A stretch of DNA of 64,000 bases from Streptomyces sp. CB00316 (GTDB taxonomy: Bacteria > Actinomycetota > Actinomycetes > Streptomycetales > Streptomycetaceae): the NCBI RefSeq assembly GCF_001905595.1, contig NZ_LIXI01000005.1, forward strand, positions 372,001-436,000, given 5' to 3'. The stretch's first letter is position 1. Each line of letters opens with the position of its first letter. Both the position numbers and the translations under genes were made by a program. Below the pieces are notes generated by a model. That model was not told the DNA's origin. It did not search any database and was given only the letters and a program-made list of their open reading frames with translations. Below, piece after piece: positions 44,020-51,841 of this stretch.

Positions 44020-44052
44020 TAAGGGGCGGCCTTTGGGAGAGGCCGCCCCTTA
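44020..44052. terminator. Bidirectional terminator between the Nudix and AIM24 genes
   Basis: TAAGGGGCGGCCT (44020-44032) pairs perfectly with AGGCCGCCCCTTA (44040-44052), a 13-bp stem with a 7-nt loop, flanked by T-rich bases in both readings. It lies between two convergent transcription units. Confidence 0.9.
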
Positions 44053-44082: not shown

Positions 44083-44838
44083 TCAGTTCCAGGCGTTGTT
44101 CTGGTTCTGGCCGTGGGCTCCCTGCTGGCCCCCGCCGAACTGGGCGCGGGCGCCCTGGCCGATCTGGGCGTTCTGCGGGGGCATGACCTCGCTCGGCTGG
44201 ACGAGGGCGAAGCCCTGACCGAGGAAGCTGAGCTCCCAGCCCTCGCCGGTGTTGCCGCGGCGCCGGAAGACACCGCTGGAGTGCGTCTGGGCCTGCATCT
44301 GCACCCGCAGGGCGCTGGACCAGGCAACGATGGCGTCGGCGTCCACGTTGACGTACTTGTCGGGCGTGACCTGCATCATCAAGGGCTGGCCGGAGGTCAT
44401 GAGGGCTACCTTGCCGGTGCCGGTGATGTTGAGCTGGTACTTGCCACTGCCGGAGATCCCGTACTGGCTGTCCACCGCGATGACCTCGGTGTGCAGCGAG
44501 GAGTCGAGCGCGAGGACGTAGGAGCTGTCCACGGTCATCCCCTCACGGTCGACGTCCACGACGTGGATGTACTGGGCGAGGTTGGCGAAGTAGACCGTGC
44601 CCTGACCGGAGACCCGCATCAGGTCGAGGCCCTCGCCGGTGTGCGCGCGGGCGCGCCGCTGGCCCTGTGACTGGTACTCGCCGTCGAAGTCCATCAGTCC
44701 CTGGTAGGCGACCATGGCGCCCTTCCGGGCCAGGATGTCGTCCTGTCCGGTCAGCGCCACCCGCAGGAGCTGCGGGTTCTGGATCGTGTACCGGTCCTGG
44801 GACTGCTGCTCGGTGTAGCTGAAAAGCGGACTCTGCAT
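44083..44838 (-). CDS. AIM24-family protein, third gene of the TerD/AIM24 operon
   Basis: A 251-residue AIM24 (COG2013) protein made of beta-strand-rich repeats: LLRVALTGQDDILARKGAMV, VSGQGTVYFANLAQYIHVVD, and IVAWSSALRVQMQAQTHSSG. A Gln/Gly/Asn-rich C-terminus ends GAHGQNQNNAWN. The ATG at 44838 has GGAGGGGAA upstream. It is 17 nt downstream of another AIM24 gene, so they are cotranscribed. AIM24-type proteins are membrane-associated and linked to membrane stability; the precise job is unknown. Confidence 0.9.
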   Translation of the reverse strand: MQSPLFSYTEQQSQDRYTIQNPQLLRVALTGQDDILARKGAMVAYQGLMDFDGEYQSQGQRRARAHTGEGLDLMRVSGQGTVYFANLAQYIHVVDVDREGMTVDSSYVLALDSSLHTEVIAVDSQYGISGSGKYQLNITGTGKVALMTSGQPLMMQVTPDKYVNVDADAIVAWSSALRVQMQAQTHSSGVFRRRGNTGEGWELSFLGQGFALVQPSEVMPPQNAQIGQGARAQFGGGQQGAHGQNQNNAWN

Positions 44839-44855
44839 GGTGTGTTCCCCTCCCC

Positions 44856-45536
44856 TCAGTTCCGGATCCGCAGGCGGTCCGTACTGTCCTCGCTCGGCTG
44901 GACGACGACGATGCCCTCTCCGGAGAAGGCCATCTGGTACGCCTCCCCGCTGCCGCGGCCGATCAGCGCCCCGGCCTTGAAGCTGCGCTTGCCCTTGACC
45001 TTGAGGTTCGTCGACCAGGCGACGAGGGCGTCCGGGTCGACGTACGTCTCGTCGTCACCGCGTCCGCAGTCGACGACGATCGGGGTGCCCCGGGAGGTGA
45101 TGGCCACCCATCCGGTGCCCTGGACGACGACGTTCCACAGCCCCTGTCCGGCGAACTTGGCCATCCCCTTGACCTTCTCGACGCCCCAGGTGAGGTGCGC
45201 GTCGAAGGCGAGGATGTTGGTGCCGTTGACCGAGATGGCCTCGTTGTTCAGGTTGATGACGACCACGTCGGCGCCGTAGTCGGCGAGGTAGAGCAGTCCG
45301 TCGCCGGAGCACTTCATGACGGGTGCGCCCTCACCGGTGATCCACTGGGAGGCGATCTGCCGGGCGGCGGGCGGATTGGGCTCGTACTGGATGAACCCCT
45401 CGTACGCCACCATCGAACCGGTGCGCGCGTAGAGGTCCTGCCCGGAGGCCATGGCGACCTTGAGCATGGCCGAGCCGTGGTTCTCCATCCGGGCCGTGAC
45501 GGGGGTCGGGGCGAAGCCCGCGAGTTGCTGGTTCAT
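44856..45536 (-). CDS. AIM24-family protein, second gene
   Basis: A 226-residue AIM24 paralogue with repeats such as MLKVAMASGQDLYARTGSMV, CSGDGLLYLADYGADVVVIN and VVVQGTGWVAITSRGTPIVV. The start ATG at 45536 has GAGGGAGCC upstream and follows the TerD-AIM24 gene by 12 nt. The three AIM24 modules here diverge enough that they must be old duplications. Confidence 0.9.
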   Translation of the reverse strand: MNQQLAGFAPTPVTARMENHGSAMLKVAMASGQDLYARTGSMVAYEGFIQYEPNPPAARQIASQWITGEGAPVMKCSGDGLLYLADYGADVVVINLNNEAISVNGTNILAFDAHLTWGVEKVKGMAKFAGQGLWNVVVQGTGWVAITSRGTPIVVDCGRGDDETYVDPDALVAWSTNLKVKGKRSFKAGALIGRGSGEAYQMAFSGEGIVVVQPSEDSTDRLRIRN

Positions 45537-45548
45537 GACGGGCTCCCT

Positions 45549-47171
45549 CTAGACCTCGTAGGGCTGGACGACGATGAAGTTGCCGGGGGCTCCCCGGAAC
45601 TGGAGGTTCACGGTCTCCCCGCTGTGTCCCGGGTACGCGTTGCGGCGCAGCCGGACCTGACTGGAGACGATCACCTGGGAGGCGGCCGACCAGGCCACCA
45701 CCGCGTTGCAGTCGGCGAACGTGGTGGGGGTGACCGGCAGGACGACCGGGGTGCCATGGGTCTTGATGATCACGGTGCCGGTGCCCTGGAACTGCATGGT
45801 GAACAGGGCGCCGCCGGGGATGCCGTGCCCCTCGACCCGGCGGACCTCGTACTGGAGGGACTCGTCGAAGGCGAGGACGCTCTCGGCGGAGACGCAGATG
45901 GCGTCGCCCTGGAGCTCGATGGGGTGCAGGTACGAGCCCTCCTCGGCGAGGAAGACCTGGCCGCGGCCGGTACAGCGCATCAGCTGCATCTCCTGGCCGG
46001 TGGCGTTGCCGACGGCCCGTCCGACGAAGCCGGCGCTCTTGTAGCCGAAGTCGACCTTGCCCTGGTACATCACCATGCTGCCCTGGCGGGCCAGCACGCC
46101 GGCTCCGCCCATGGTCAGGTCGACCCGCATGAGCTGCTTGTTCTGCGGGGTCCAGCGCTGTCCGGTAGGCGTCTCCTTGTACAGCTGGAGGGCCGCGTGG
46201 AGCCCGGCGCCGGCCGCCGGAGGGCCCTGCGGCACACCGACGGGCTGCTGCTGCCCGAAGGGGGCCGGGGCGTTCTGCCCGTACGGTGCCGGGGCCGGCT
46301 GGCCGTAGGGAGCGGGCGCGGGCTGGCCGTAGGGCGGTGTGGGCGCAACGCCCTGGCCGGGGACCTGGCCGAACTGCGGCTGCGGGGGCGGCGGGGGCTG
46401 GTGACCGGGCTGGCCGTACGGGGCCGGGGCCGGGGGCGCCTGCGGCGTGAGCGGGGCCGCGATCGTGGGCGCGGCATGCATCGGCTGCTGCGGCGCGGGC
46501 GCGGGCGGGGCGCCGAAGGACGGTGCGGGCTGCGGGGCCTGGGGGGCGGGCGGTGCGGGCGGGGCCGCGAAGGCCGGGGCCGCGGTGGCCTGGGCCGGCG
46601 GGGCGAAGCCCGGGGCCGCCTGCGGGGCGGCCGGCGCCTCCTCCTCGGCGACCTCGCCGCCGAAGTTCTTCAGGAGCGCGTCGAGACCGCCGTCGAAGCC
46701 CTGGCCGACGGCGGCGAAGCGCCAGACGTCCTTCAGGTAGAAGTCACCGAGCATCACAGCGCGCTCGGTGGTGAACTCCGAGCCGGTGAAGGCGTATCTG
46801 ACCACTTCCTCACCGCCCGCGACGATCCGGATGTACCCGGGGCCGACCTGCGACATCTGTCCGGCACCGTCGAGCGTCGCGGTGAAGGAGAGCTTGTGGA
46901 TACTGGCCGGGATGCGGTCGAGCGTGACGCGGAAGGACTCGGTGTCACCGGACTGCGCACCGAGGAGCTGAATCGACTCCTCGGGCGATTTCGGCTGGTT
47001 GAAGAAGATGAAATACCGGTCGTCCGAGAGCTGTTCATCGGCATCCAGGCCGAAGCAGCTGATGTCGAAGGTCAGTCCAGGGGCGGCGATCTGCACACCT
47101 ACGTACAGATCTGTCCCCGGTGTGAGATCACTGATCTTGGCCTTGTGGCCTCGTTGGAATTCCCTGGCCAT
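45549..47171 (-). CDS. TerD-AIM24 fusion protein
   Basis: A 540-residue fusion. Residues 1-185 form a TerD-like calcium-binding domain: MAREFQRGHKAKISDLTPGT, VQIAAPGLTFDISCFGLDAD, EQLSDDRYFIFFNQ. A long Pro/Ala/Gln linker of near-repeats (PYGQPAPAPYGQ, PYGQNAPAPFGQ) follows, then an AIM24 domain from about 320 (QLMRVDLTMGGAGVLARQGS) to the end (NFIVVQPYEV). TerD-domain proteins take part in tellurite and stress responses. The ATG at 47171 begins the TerD homology. It heads an operon with the two other AIM24 genes. A role in membrane stress is inference from domains. Confidence 0.92.
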   Translation of the reverse strand: MAREFQRGHKAKISDLTPGTDLYVGVQIAAPGLTFDISCFGLDADEQLSDDRYFIFFNQPKSPEESIQLLGAQSGDTESFRVTLDRIPASIHKLSFTATLDGAGQMSQVGPGYIRIVAGGEEVVRYAFTGSEFTTERAVMLGDFYLKDVWRFAAVGQGFDGGLDALLKNFGGEVAEEEAPAAPQAAPGFAPPAQATAAPAFAAPPAPPAPQAPQPAPSFGAPPAPAPQQPMHAAPTIAAPLTPQAPPAPAPYGQPGHQPPPPPQPQFGQVPGQGVAPTPPYGQPAPAPYGQPAPAPYGQNAPAPFGQQQPVGVPQGPPAAGAGLHAALQLYKETPTGQRWTPQNKQLMRVDLTMGGAGVLARQGSMVMYQGKVDFGYKSAGFVGRAVGNATGQEMQLMRCTGRGQVFLAEEGSYLHPIELQGDAICVSAESVLAFDESLQYEVRRVEGHGIPGGALFTMQFQGTGTVIIKTHGTPVVLPVTPTTFADCNAVVAWSAASQVIVSSQVRLRRNAYPGHSGETVNLQFRGAPGNFIVVQPYEV

Positions 47172-47310
47172 ACGTAACGACCGTCCCCCATCCCGAAGGT
47201 GAATGCGTCGCGTCAGGCTAACCGCAAACCGCGACATCCGGCCAAGCCGGTACAGACCCGGTACAGAATCGCCGAACGCGTCTCGTCCGGGAGCGCGGCG
47301 TGCGCCGGTC

Positions 47311-49337: not shown

Positions 49338-49401
49338 CCGTCGCCGCCGGAGAGACACCGGCGGCCCGAGCGGCACGGCAGTCTGGGAACTGGAGGGGCA
49401 C

Positions 49402-50781
49402 ATGTCTGATCTTCCCCGGAAGGCGGTTACGCGTACGGCCAAGCTGGCCGCGCTCCCGCTCGGCTTCGCCGGCCGTGCCACCTGGGGTCTGGGCAAGCGG
49501 ATCGGCGGCAGGTCCGCCGAGCTGGTCGCCCGTGAGGTGCAGCAGCGCACGGCGGACCAGCTGTTCAAGACCCTGGGCGAGCTGAAGGGCGGGGCCATGA
49601 AGCTGGGCCAGGCCCTCTCGGTCTTCGAGTCGGCGCTGCCCGAGGAGATCGCGGGCCCCTACCGGGCCGCGCTGACCAAGCTCCAGGAGGCCGCTCCGCC
49701 CCTGCCCGCGGCCACGGTTCACGCGGTGCTGGCCGAGCGGATCGGCGAGGACTGGCGGGAGCACTTCCTGGAGTTCGAGGACAAGCCGTCGGCCGCCGCC
49801 TCGATCGGGCAGGTGCACCGGGGGGTGTGGCACGACGGCCGGGAGGTCGCCGTGAAGGTGCAGTACCCCGGTGCGGGCGACGCGCTGCTCTCGGACCTCA
49901 CCCAGCTCAGCCGCTTCGCCCGGCTGCTCGGCCCCCTGGTCCCGGGGATGGACATCAAGCCGCTCATCAAGGAGATGCGCGACCGGGTGTCGGAGGAGCT
50001 GGACTACGAGCTGGAGGCGCAGGCCCAGCGGGTCCACACGGAGGAGTTCGCGGACGATCCCGATGTGGTGATCCCGGGGGTGGTGCACCAGTCCGACCAG
50101 GTGCTGGTGACGGAGTGGATGGACGGGGTGCCGCTGGCCGACATCATCGCGGAGGGCACGGCGGAGCAGCGGGACCGGGCCGGGCAGCTGCTGGCGCGCT
50201 TCCTCTTCTCGGGCCCGGCCCGTACCGGCCTGCTCCACGCCGACCCGCATCCGGGCAACTTCCGGCTGCTGCCCCCGGCGGAGGCCCCGCACGCTCCGGA
50301 TGGCTCGGACGAAGGGGGTGCCGAGGCCGGTCGGTGGCGGCTGGGGGTGCTGGACTTCGGCACGGTTGACCGACTGCCGGGCGGGCTGCCGGGGACCATC
50401 GGTGAGTCCCTGCGGATGACCCTGGAGGGCGACGCGGCCGGGGTGTACGGACTGCTGCGCGCAGAGGGGTTCGTGAAGGAGTCGATCGACCTGGAGCCGG
50501 ACGAGGTGCTCGACTACCTGCTCCCGATCATCGAACCTGCGCAGGTGGAGGAATTCGCCTTCTCCCGGGGCTGGCTGCGGGACCAGGCGGCCCGGATAGC
50601 TGATCCGCGCTCCCCCGCCCACCAGCTCGGCAGGCAGCTGAACCTGCCGCCGTCCTATCTCCTGATACACCGGGTCACGCTCAGCACGATCGGGGTGCTG
50701 TGCCAGCTCGGTGCGGCGGTCCGGCTGCGGGACGAACTCGAGGCGTGGCTGCCGGGGTTCGTCGCGGAGAGCGGTGCGTAG
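49402..50781 (+). CDS. ABC1/UbiB-family atypical kinase
   Basis: A 459-residue protein with the ABC1 signatures KGGAMKLGQALSVFESALPE (KxGQ), SAAASIGQVHRGVW (the A-rich loop), VAVKVQYPG (Lys), LLHADPHPGNFRLLPP and LGVLDFGTVDRLPGG (DFG). UbiB-family kinases act in isoprenoid-lipid biosynthesis and mitochondrial-type quinone homeostasis; the actinobacterial role is unknown. The ATG at 49402 has GGAGGGG upstream. A small zinc-ribbon gene follows on the opposite strand. Confidence 0.93.
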   Translation: MSDLPRKAVTRTAKLAALPLGFAGRATWGLGKRIGGRSAELVAREVQQRTADQLFKTLGELKGGAMKLGQALSVFESALPEEIAGPYRAALTKLQEAAPPLPAATVHAVLAERIGEDWREHFLEFEDKPSAAASIGQVHRGVWHDGREVAVKVQYPGAGDALLSDLTQLSRFARLLGPLVPGMDIKPLIKEMRDRVSEELDYELEAQAQRVHTEEFADDPDVVIPGVVHQSDQVLVTEWMDGVPLADIIAEGTAEQRDRAGQLLARFLFSGPARTGLLHADPHPGNFRLLPPAEAPHAPDGSDEGGAEAGRWRLGVLDFGTVDRLPGGLPGTIGESLRMTLEGDAAGVYGLLRAEGFVKESIDLEPDEVLDYLLPIIEPAQVEEFAFSRGWLRDQAARIADPRSPAHQLGRQLNLPPSYLLIHRVTLSTIGVLCQLGAAVRLRDELEAWLPGFVAESGA

Positions 50782-50787
50782 CCGGGG

Positions 50788-50991
50788 TCACCACCAGAGG
50801 GAGTCGAGGCGGCTCTCGATCGCTCTGATGTGGAGGCGGGCACAGGTCTCGCAGAAGTGAAGGCGGCGGCCGTCCTCCACGGAGGAGAGCCAGGTCACCG
50901 GTGCCGTGTCGCCTTCGGCGGCGGTGCCGCAGCGGGCACAGACCACCGGTCCGGCGGCCGGCTGTTCGGGGGGATGCGTGTCCTCGTCCAC
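50788..50991 (-). CDS. Small zinc-ribbon protein
   Basis: A 67-residue protein with two CxxC pairs (PVVCARCGTA and HFCETCARLH), a zinc-ribbon arrangement, and a C-terminal LDSLWW. The start is uncertain: the GTG at 50991 has no strong ribosome site, and a longer frame reaches 51036 but would overlap the terminator at 51035. The codon usage looks genuine. It is convergent with the ABC1 gene. The function is unknown. Confidence 0.75.
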   Translation of the reverse strand: MDEDTHPPEQPAAGPVVCARCGTAAEGDTAPVTWLSSVEDGRRLHFCETCARLHIRAIESRLDSLWW

Positions 50992-51034
50992 CTCGTGACG
51001 ATATCCCCGCGCCCGGGCCCCGGCAGCACAACGC

Positions 51035-51070
51035 ACCGCGGGGCCGTCCTTGTTCGGACGGCCCCGCGGT
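51035..51070 (-). terminator. Terminator downstream of the wblC unit
   Basis: A perfect 15-bp stem ACCGCGGGGCCGTCC/GGACGGCCCCGCGGT (51035-51049 with 51056-51070) with a 6-nt loop, 38 bases after the stop of the gene at 51108. It is the likely end of the wblC-containing transcript. Confidence 0.88.
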
Positions 51071-51463: not shown

Positions 51464-51841
51464 TCACGCTGCGACCGGGTTCTTGCGCGGACGGCCGCGC
51501 GGCCGCTTGCGGGCCACGACGACACCCTGGACGAAGAGCTCGCCTCCCCAGACGCCCCACGGCTCGCGCCGCTCCCTGGCACCGGCGAGGCAGGCCTCGA
51601 CGAGCGGGCAGGTACGGCAGAGGGACTTGGCGTACTCGACGTCGGCCGGGGACTCGGCGAAGAAGACCTCCGGGTCGTACGAGCGGCAGGGGACGGGTAC
51701 GCCGAGGTTCTCGATGGCGTCGTCGAGCGCGGTGAGCGCGGTGAGCGCGGTGAGGGGGAGCAAGGTGGAGTCCTCCGTGGAACCGGGCGGGGAGATCGAG
51801 TCGGACTGCGGTACTGACGGGGCGTGCGCTTCGAGTTGCAC
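51464..51841 (-). CDS. wblC: WhiB-family antibiotic-resistance regulator WblC/WhiB7
   Basis: A 125-residue WhiB-like iron-sulfur protein. The four cluster ligands are Cys52, Cys75, Cys78 and Cys84 (VPCRSYDPEVFF, LCRTCPLVEAC), the GVWGG turn is at 96-100 and the C-terminal AT-hook RGRPRK at 115-120 is diagnostic of WhiB7/WblC. It partners with the principal sigma factor to turn on ribosome-protection, efflux and drug-modification genes. Upstream lie a uORF and an intrinsic attenuator. Residues 31-39 (TALTALTAL) derive from a 9-bp tandem triplication. The start at 51841 follows the leader. Confidence 0.97.
   Translation of the reverse strand: MQLEAHAPSVPQSDSISPPGSTEDSTLLPLTALTALTALDDAIENLGVPVPCRSYDPEVFFAESPADVEYAKSLCRTCPLVEACLAGARERREPWGVWGGELFVQGVVVARKRPRGRPRKNPVAA
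51725..51751. repeat. 9-bp tandem triplication inside wblC
   Basis: GAGCGCGGT is present three times in tandem (51725-51733, 51734-51742, 51743-51751), encoding three consecutive LTA-type triplets near residues 30-40. It preserves the frame and looks like a slippage-prone length-variable segment in the non-conserved linker before the first Cys. Confidence 0.85.

Follow-up and report, generated by a model that had tools for sequence, protein, structure and literature searches.

A conserved Streptomyces operon that joins a TerF-type TerD domain to three AIM24 proteins

A short operon of Streptomyces sp. CB00316 ties one TerD domain through a long linker to an AIM24 domain and places two further AIM24 genes behind it, which raises the question of what a TerD domain does with three AIM24 proteins and whether calcium has any part in it. 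The operon lies in a stretch of 64,000 nucleotides of contig NZ_LIXI01000005.1 (the window).

Layout of the operon and its flanks

The three genes run head to tail on the minus strand from 47171 to 44083, and the intergenic gaps of 12 and 17 nt are exactly those given in the initial annotation. The genes and their parts are as follows.

45549-47171, minus strand: gene 1, the TerD-linker-AIM24a fusion, 540 aa
46662-47171, minus strand: TerD domain of gene 1 (residues 1-170), of the TerF-type clade, most calcium ligands lost
46140-46661, minus strand: linker of gene 1 (residues 171-344), Pro/Ala/Gln/Gly low-complexity
45561-46139, minus strand: AIM24a domain of gene 1 (residues 345-537)
44856-45536, minus strand: gene 2, AIM24b, 226 aa
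44083-44838, minus strand: gene 3, AIM24c, 251 aa, with a Gln/Asn/Gly-rich tail at the C-terminus

Both domains of the 540-aa gene 1 product score above their Pfam cut-offs (TerD, PF02342, 123.8 bits against 25.3; AIM24, PF01987, 87.6 bits against 25.7), confirming that TerD and AIM24 are tethered in one protein. Genes 2 and 3 each carry a single AIM24 domain (126.9 and 110 bits against the same 25.7). The NCBIfam model TIGR00266, with a cut-off of 96.6 bits, was missed by genes 1, 2 and 3 (29.6, 47.4 and 43.4 bits), and the Pfam scan found no C-terminal vWA-TerF-like domain (PF10138) in gene 1. Fold comparison of AIM24 was made with the gene 3 model alone (pLDDT 70.9, 28 rows), which matches the AIM24 crystal structure 1pg6 (E 6.7e-10) and six chains of 1yox, the sole matches at E ≤0.001; the model of the fusion had a pLDDT of 43 and was too poor to use, including for the linker. 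A chance origin of the arrangement is excluded by the E-values and by the fact that other genomes keep both the fusion and the gene order.

The linker had been described as a long Pro/Gln repeat. It is indeed long, of low complexity and contains Pro and Gln, but Ala and Gly are also abundant and there is no strict repeat: the composition is Pro 31, Ala 21, Gln 13 and Gly 13% in 65 fusions from 80 named loci, and the length between domain matches is 128–233 residues, with a median of 175, in the 64 loci where the trio is complete and a single frame encodes the fusion. Judged by this composition the linker is probably disordered. Hydropathy shows no membrane-spanning segment in any of the three proteins, the highest 19-residue Kyte–Doolittle mean being 1.34.

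Upstream, a YgjP-like gene ends 139 nt ahead of gene 1. On the other side a NUDIX gene, convergent to the operon, lies beyond a 12-pair hairpin. The candidate control elements are listed below, with counts out of 65 upstream regions, 64 from named loci and one from the window.

47179-47193, minus strand: conserved leader block GGATGGGGGACGGTC, containing a likely ribosome-binding site, in 63/65 upstream regions
47214-47222, minus strand: conserved GTTAGCCTG, a -10-like element (TAGCCT) with a putative promoter role, in 61/65 upstream regions
47248-47264, minus strand: direct repeat GTACCG-N5-GTACCG, a possible operator
44021-44051, no strand assigned: 12-pair GC-rich hairpin, terminator-like, in the interval between operon and NUDIX gene (z -3.63 for the folded 81-nt stretch)

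The repeat occurs as GTACCG-N(3-7)-GTACCG in 48/65 upstream regions, and its recurrence, with that of GTTAGCCTG and the leader block, makes it likely that the operon has its own promoter. A sigma-70 pattern scan returned no promoter at the operon; a terminator pattern scan, which needs a T run, returned none on the operon strand and did not report the 44021-44051 hairpin.

In many named loci the operon adjoins a block that contains a WhiB family gene (window 51464-51841) and an ABC1-type kinase (49399-50781) resembling the macrolide-binding MABP-1 at 452.8 bits, below the model cut-off of 800. An 82-aa frame at 50788-51036 of the window has no Pfam or NCBIfam match.

The TerD domain, calcium and the ter clusters

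The initial annotation took the fused domain for a calcium-binding-type TerD and proposed that it is the sensor of a calcium-triggered membrane complex. Pfam does place the domain in the TerD family, and according to an excerpt of PMC8779313 the TerD of K. pneumoniae binds calcium at two sites. With the site numbers of that excerpt (D29, D40, D42, D78, N79, D88 and E89), and with residue identities read off the alignment, residue 29 being taken as the GWD aspartate of the own-genome TerDs, the fused domain retains two of the seven side-chain ligand positions, D42 and E89. The same holds across 66 fused domains: D42 is kept in all 66 and E89 in 65, D40 in none (one has Glu) and D88 in one, while D29, D78 and N79 fall in alignment gaps in 66/66. 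In contrast, all seven positions are kept in the five calcium-type TerDs of the same genome; among its nine other TerD domains, six positions are kept in three and fewer in the rest. The GDNxTG motif is likewise missing in all four aligned TerF-type relatives. The calcium-binding label was thus wrong, and we consider a calcium sensor in this domain very improbable, although calcium could still enter via canonical TerD paralogues.

In the TerD tree the domain stands away from the calcium-type TerDs of its own genome and groups with TerF-type domains from plasmids (100/100). The plasmid matches have 42.6–46.9% identity among the 20 listed from 139 records, and four relatives inspected by Pfam comprise two with a vWA-TerF-like domain and two with TerD only. 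TerF of the ter clusters, which combines TerD with a vWA-TerF-like domain, belongs to the same clade (100/100) but differs in its partner, a vWA domain where gene 1 has AIM24 on a long leash; the operon differs further in having two more AIM24 genes after gene 1 and no TerC on its contig. A mobile origin of the fusion was rejected, since none of the 139 matching plasmid records holds 80% of it. With the TerD domain alone, five phage records match at 28.8–33.7% identity.

This clade membership is one reason to ask whether the operon is a ter cassette for tellurite resistance or phage defence. A second is found on a Deinococcus taeanensis plasmid (NZ_CP083457.1, 4607-5989), where a TerD-AIM24 fusion annotated only as AIM24 family protein adjoins TerF and TerD genes and has its TerD in the TerF-type clade. 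A third is that ter group I contains AIM24, according to extracts of PMC5822837. The operon itself, however, keeps its chromosomal site, flanked by YgjP and NUDIX, in 65 of the 80 best named loci; among the 15 that remain, 13 start within gene 1. Its contig, C22, has no TerC, the four TerC matches of the genome being on three other contigs (C24, C12 and C1). The five calcium-type TerDs (two have a TerC neighbour) likewise lie off the operon contig, and so do both PF10138 matches in the genome. At E 0.1 the three operon proteins match no PADLOC family, and a filing under phage defence was rejected on that ground. Taken as a whole, a ter cassette appears quite unlikely.

The Deinococcus fusion resembles gene 1 in domain order, in its Pro/Ala-rich linker and in its TerF-type TerD. 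It differs from the operon in having one AIM24 in the fetched stretch and TerF and TerD genes next to it, and its AIM24 part, with at most 40% identity to any row, falls outside the a clade. Two other fusions (L101 and L205) share with it (L219) the lack of b or c in the fetched stretch. In genomes G049 and G341 the TerD of the fusion lies in another clade than the TerF type, so TerD-AIM24 fusions occur in more than one TerD clade. A tree forcing the TerDs of nine actinobacterial fusions together was rejected at p-AU 4.5e-45 for a group chosen post hoc from the tree; the same constraint on the AIM24 halves, including Deinococcus, gave a weak p-AU of 0.028. The fused TerDs of Streptomyces and Frankia group together within the TerF-type clade with a support of just 88/83.

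Gene order, natural deletions and AIM24 lineages

The initial annotation had suggested surveying the distribution of the fusion, and both fusion and order prove to be conserved across Streptomyces and Frankia-like loci. A pattern scan of named genomes gave at least 594 matched stretches, 552 of which encode a relative; the best 80 loci were kept, being by title 76 Streptomyces and one each of [Kitasatospora], Microtetraspora, 'Actinobacteria bacterium' and Frankia gtarii. The a-b-c order is present in 79 of these 80, and in the remaining one, from Frankia (L146), the contig ends before a c gene can be recognised. TerD and AIM24a share one frame in 65/80 and are frame-split in 2/80, the contig beginning inside gene 1 in the other 13. 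Another 17 same-genus loci all have the three genes, with the fusion in frame in 16 and cut by the contig end in one; among them L087 lacks any of the usual neighbours and L094 has them on one side only.

A class search listed matches in 17 genomes of family f59, which we call Frankia-like since its rows group with Frankia gtarii in the AIM24 tree. The order fusion-b-c is found in all seven f59 loci fetched, where none of the Streptomyces flanking genes was found; in L207 about 790 nt separate the fusion from b. The N-terminus of AIM24c is Pro/Gly/Tyr-rich in Frankia-like L201, L202, L204 and, over a short length, L207; the Frankia L146 contig ends in a similar reading, so that arms of low complexity are found elsewhere in the triad too.

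A survey of 147 genomes of the order, which covered gene 2 only, found its ortholog in 129 of 134 same-genus genomes (E below 1e-70), in none of 12 genomes of family f46, and as only a distant match (42% identity) in the sole genome of family f45. Three of the five same-genus genomes without gene 2 lack the whole operon: in G201, G246 and G262 YgjP and NUDIX are immediate neighbours, both intact, with the operon missing between them, and the rest of these genomes yielded nothing closely related to gene 1 or 3. In the fourth, G214 (L208:3992-6037), the TerD and the Pro-rich linker remain at the same site in an open frame ~418 residues long, and AIM24a, b and c are gone. In all four genomes the AIM24 parts have thus disappeared together; the search for loci that miss only a or only c covered the fetched loci. 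The fifth genome, G165, was rejected as a deletion, its TerD gene running off the contig end. With conserved order and block loss, the modules do behave as a unit, in line with the initial annotation. Since G214 keeps an open TerD frame without any AIM24 part, the TerD arm can persist alone, which argues against strict dependence in that direction, and it may have a job of its own.

A tree of 54 AIM24 rows unites the Streptomyces and Frankia-like members of a, b and c in one clade each (100/98, 100/99 and 100/99), which means that the triad either predates the split between the two or moved as one. A second AIM24 triad is present in the same genome (L023:7306-9343; contig C22, ~200.3–202.3 kb), near genes that we take to resemble GlxA/CslA and a MarR regulator, and with no TerD in the surrounding 16-kb stretch. 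Its members 1, 2 and 3 pair with those of G049, a genome of another family whose triad is divergent to TerD genes (96/85, 99/98 and 100/100); the pairing of member 1 is weaker in two other trees (94/44 and 95/75).

Shared transcription could also be all that links the three genes, each forming an AIM24 homo-oligomer with a separate ligand and kept with the others for dosage or regulation. This would agree with the phylum sample, in which AIM24 occurs in 46 genomes, with one copy in 40 of them and two copies in two, so that AIM24 can work without a triad in 42/46, and with the position of the a, b and c lineages of the operon, which lie far apart in the tree, the deep AIM24 branches being long and partly unresolved (the tree tool warned of long branches). 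It accounts less readily for an order conserved over two families and two neighbourhoods, for two triads in one genome and for loss as a block, and we regard it as rather unlikely, though deserving of attention.

A possible three-subunit assembly

The reading that we prefer, and to which we give an even chance, is an assembly of three AIM24 subunits from which a flexible TerD arm, blind to calcium, extends. The operon would make one assembly, cytoplasmic or peripheral to the membrane. In it the diverged AIM24a, b and c would depend on one another as parts of a single hetero-oligomer, of which a heterotrimer is the most probable form. AIM24a would bear the TerF-type TerD on its long, probably disordered leash, and the TerD, with most calcium ligands lost, would act as a docking arm, perhaps for other TerD proteins or another Ter partner. 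Contact between a, b and c is suggested by genetic evidence; the trimer stoichiometry, the docking target, a location at the membrane and a role in envelope or stress adaptation are putative. The one-assembly reading is favoured by the a-b-c order in named and Frankia-like loci of different neighbourhoods, the three-way orthology, the second triad, the block loss and the fusions in different TerD clades. It is weakened by the prevalence of AIM24 without a triad, by fusions that lack b and c, by G214, by the long, partly unresolved deep AIM24 branches and by the 88/83 support for the fused TerDs.

The neighbourhood of TerD and AIM24 is not new. Extracts of PMC5822837 report that Anantharaman, Iyer and Aravind found in 2012 that AIM24 is often encoded beside TerD and that an interaction was suggested. 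Their ter group I neighbourhoods, as far as these extracts describe them, resemble the operon in having TerD and AIM24 genes near each other, and the operon differs by the fusion and the three-member AIM24 triad in Streptomyces and Frankia; fusion and triad are here a new variant of a neighbourhood known since 2012. Among the matches listed from the open-access literature, with most subscription journals outside its scope, we recognised no paper on a fused TerD-AIM24 triad; searches there for 'AIM24 family protein' with Streptomyces, and for guessed S. coelicolor locus tags of the operon, returned none, and no pertinent paper on an AIM24 trimer was recognised among 10 of 51 matches listed. The operon had been called an under-described system: it is little described in open-access literature, where searches gave PMC5822837 as the one paper naming both families, but AIM24 beside TerD had already been reported, as the extracts of PMC5822837 indicate.

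Streptomyces and Frankia share a hyphal habit. More tentatively, the AIM24s of hyphal actinomycetes may be obligate hetero-triads, and the Ter system may have recruited AIM24 as a working platform more than once, here with a TerF-type TerD and AIM24 replacing the vWA half, in a calcium-independent Ter branch of the core genome.

Yeast Aim24 has a role in respiration at the mitochondrial inner membrane, which is not transferable as such to the AIM24s of the operon. The likeness between yeast mitochondrial Aim24 and the operon proteins is in the AIM24 family name, as used in extracts of PMC5822837, and, for gene 3, in a fold that matches the AIM24 crystal structures. The same extracts state that by 2018 AIM24 had been given no role in prokaryotes. 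The molecular function of TerD is unsettled, and the operon provides a concrete TerD-AIM24 pairing that is separate from calcium. In summary, a conserved chromosomal operon joins one TerD to three AIM24s, with natural deletion strains and with fusions in more than one lineage. Our reading predicts that AIM24 can form hetero-oligomers of three parts; this would bear on views of its mitochondrial relative.
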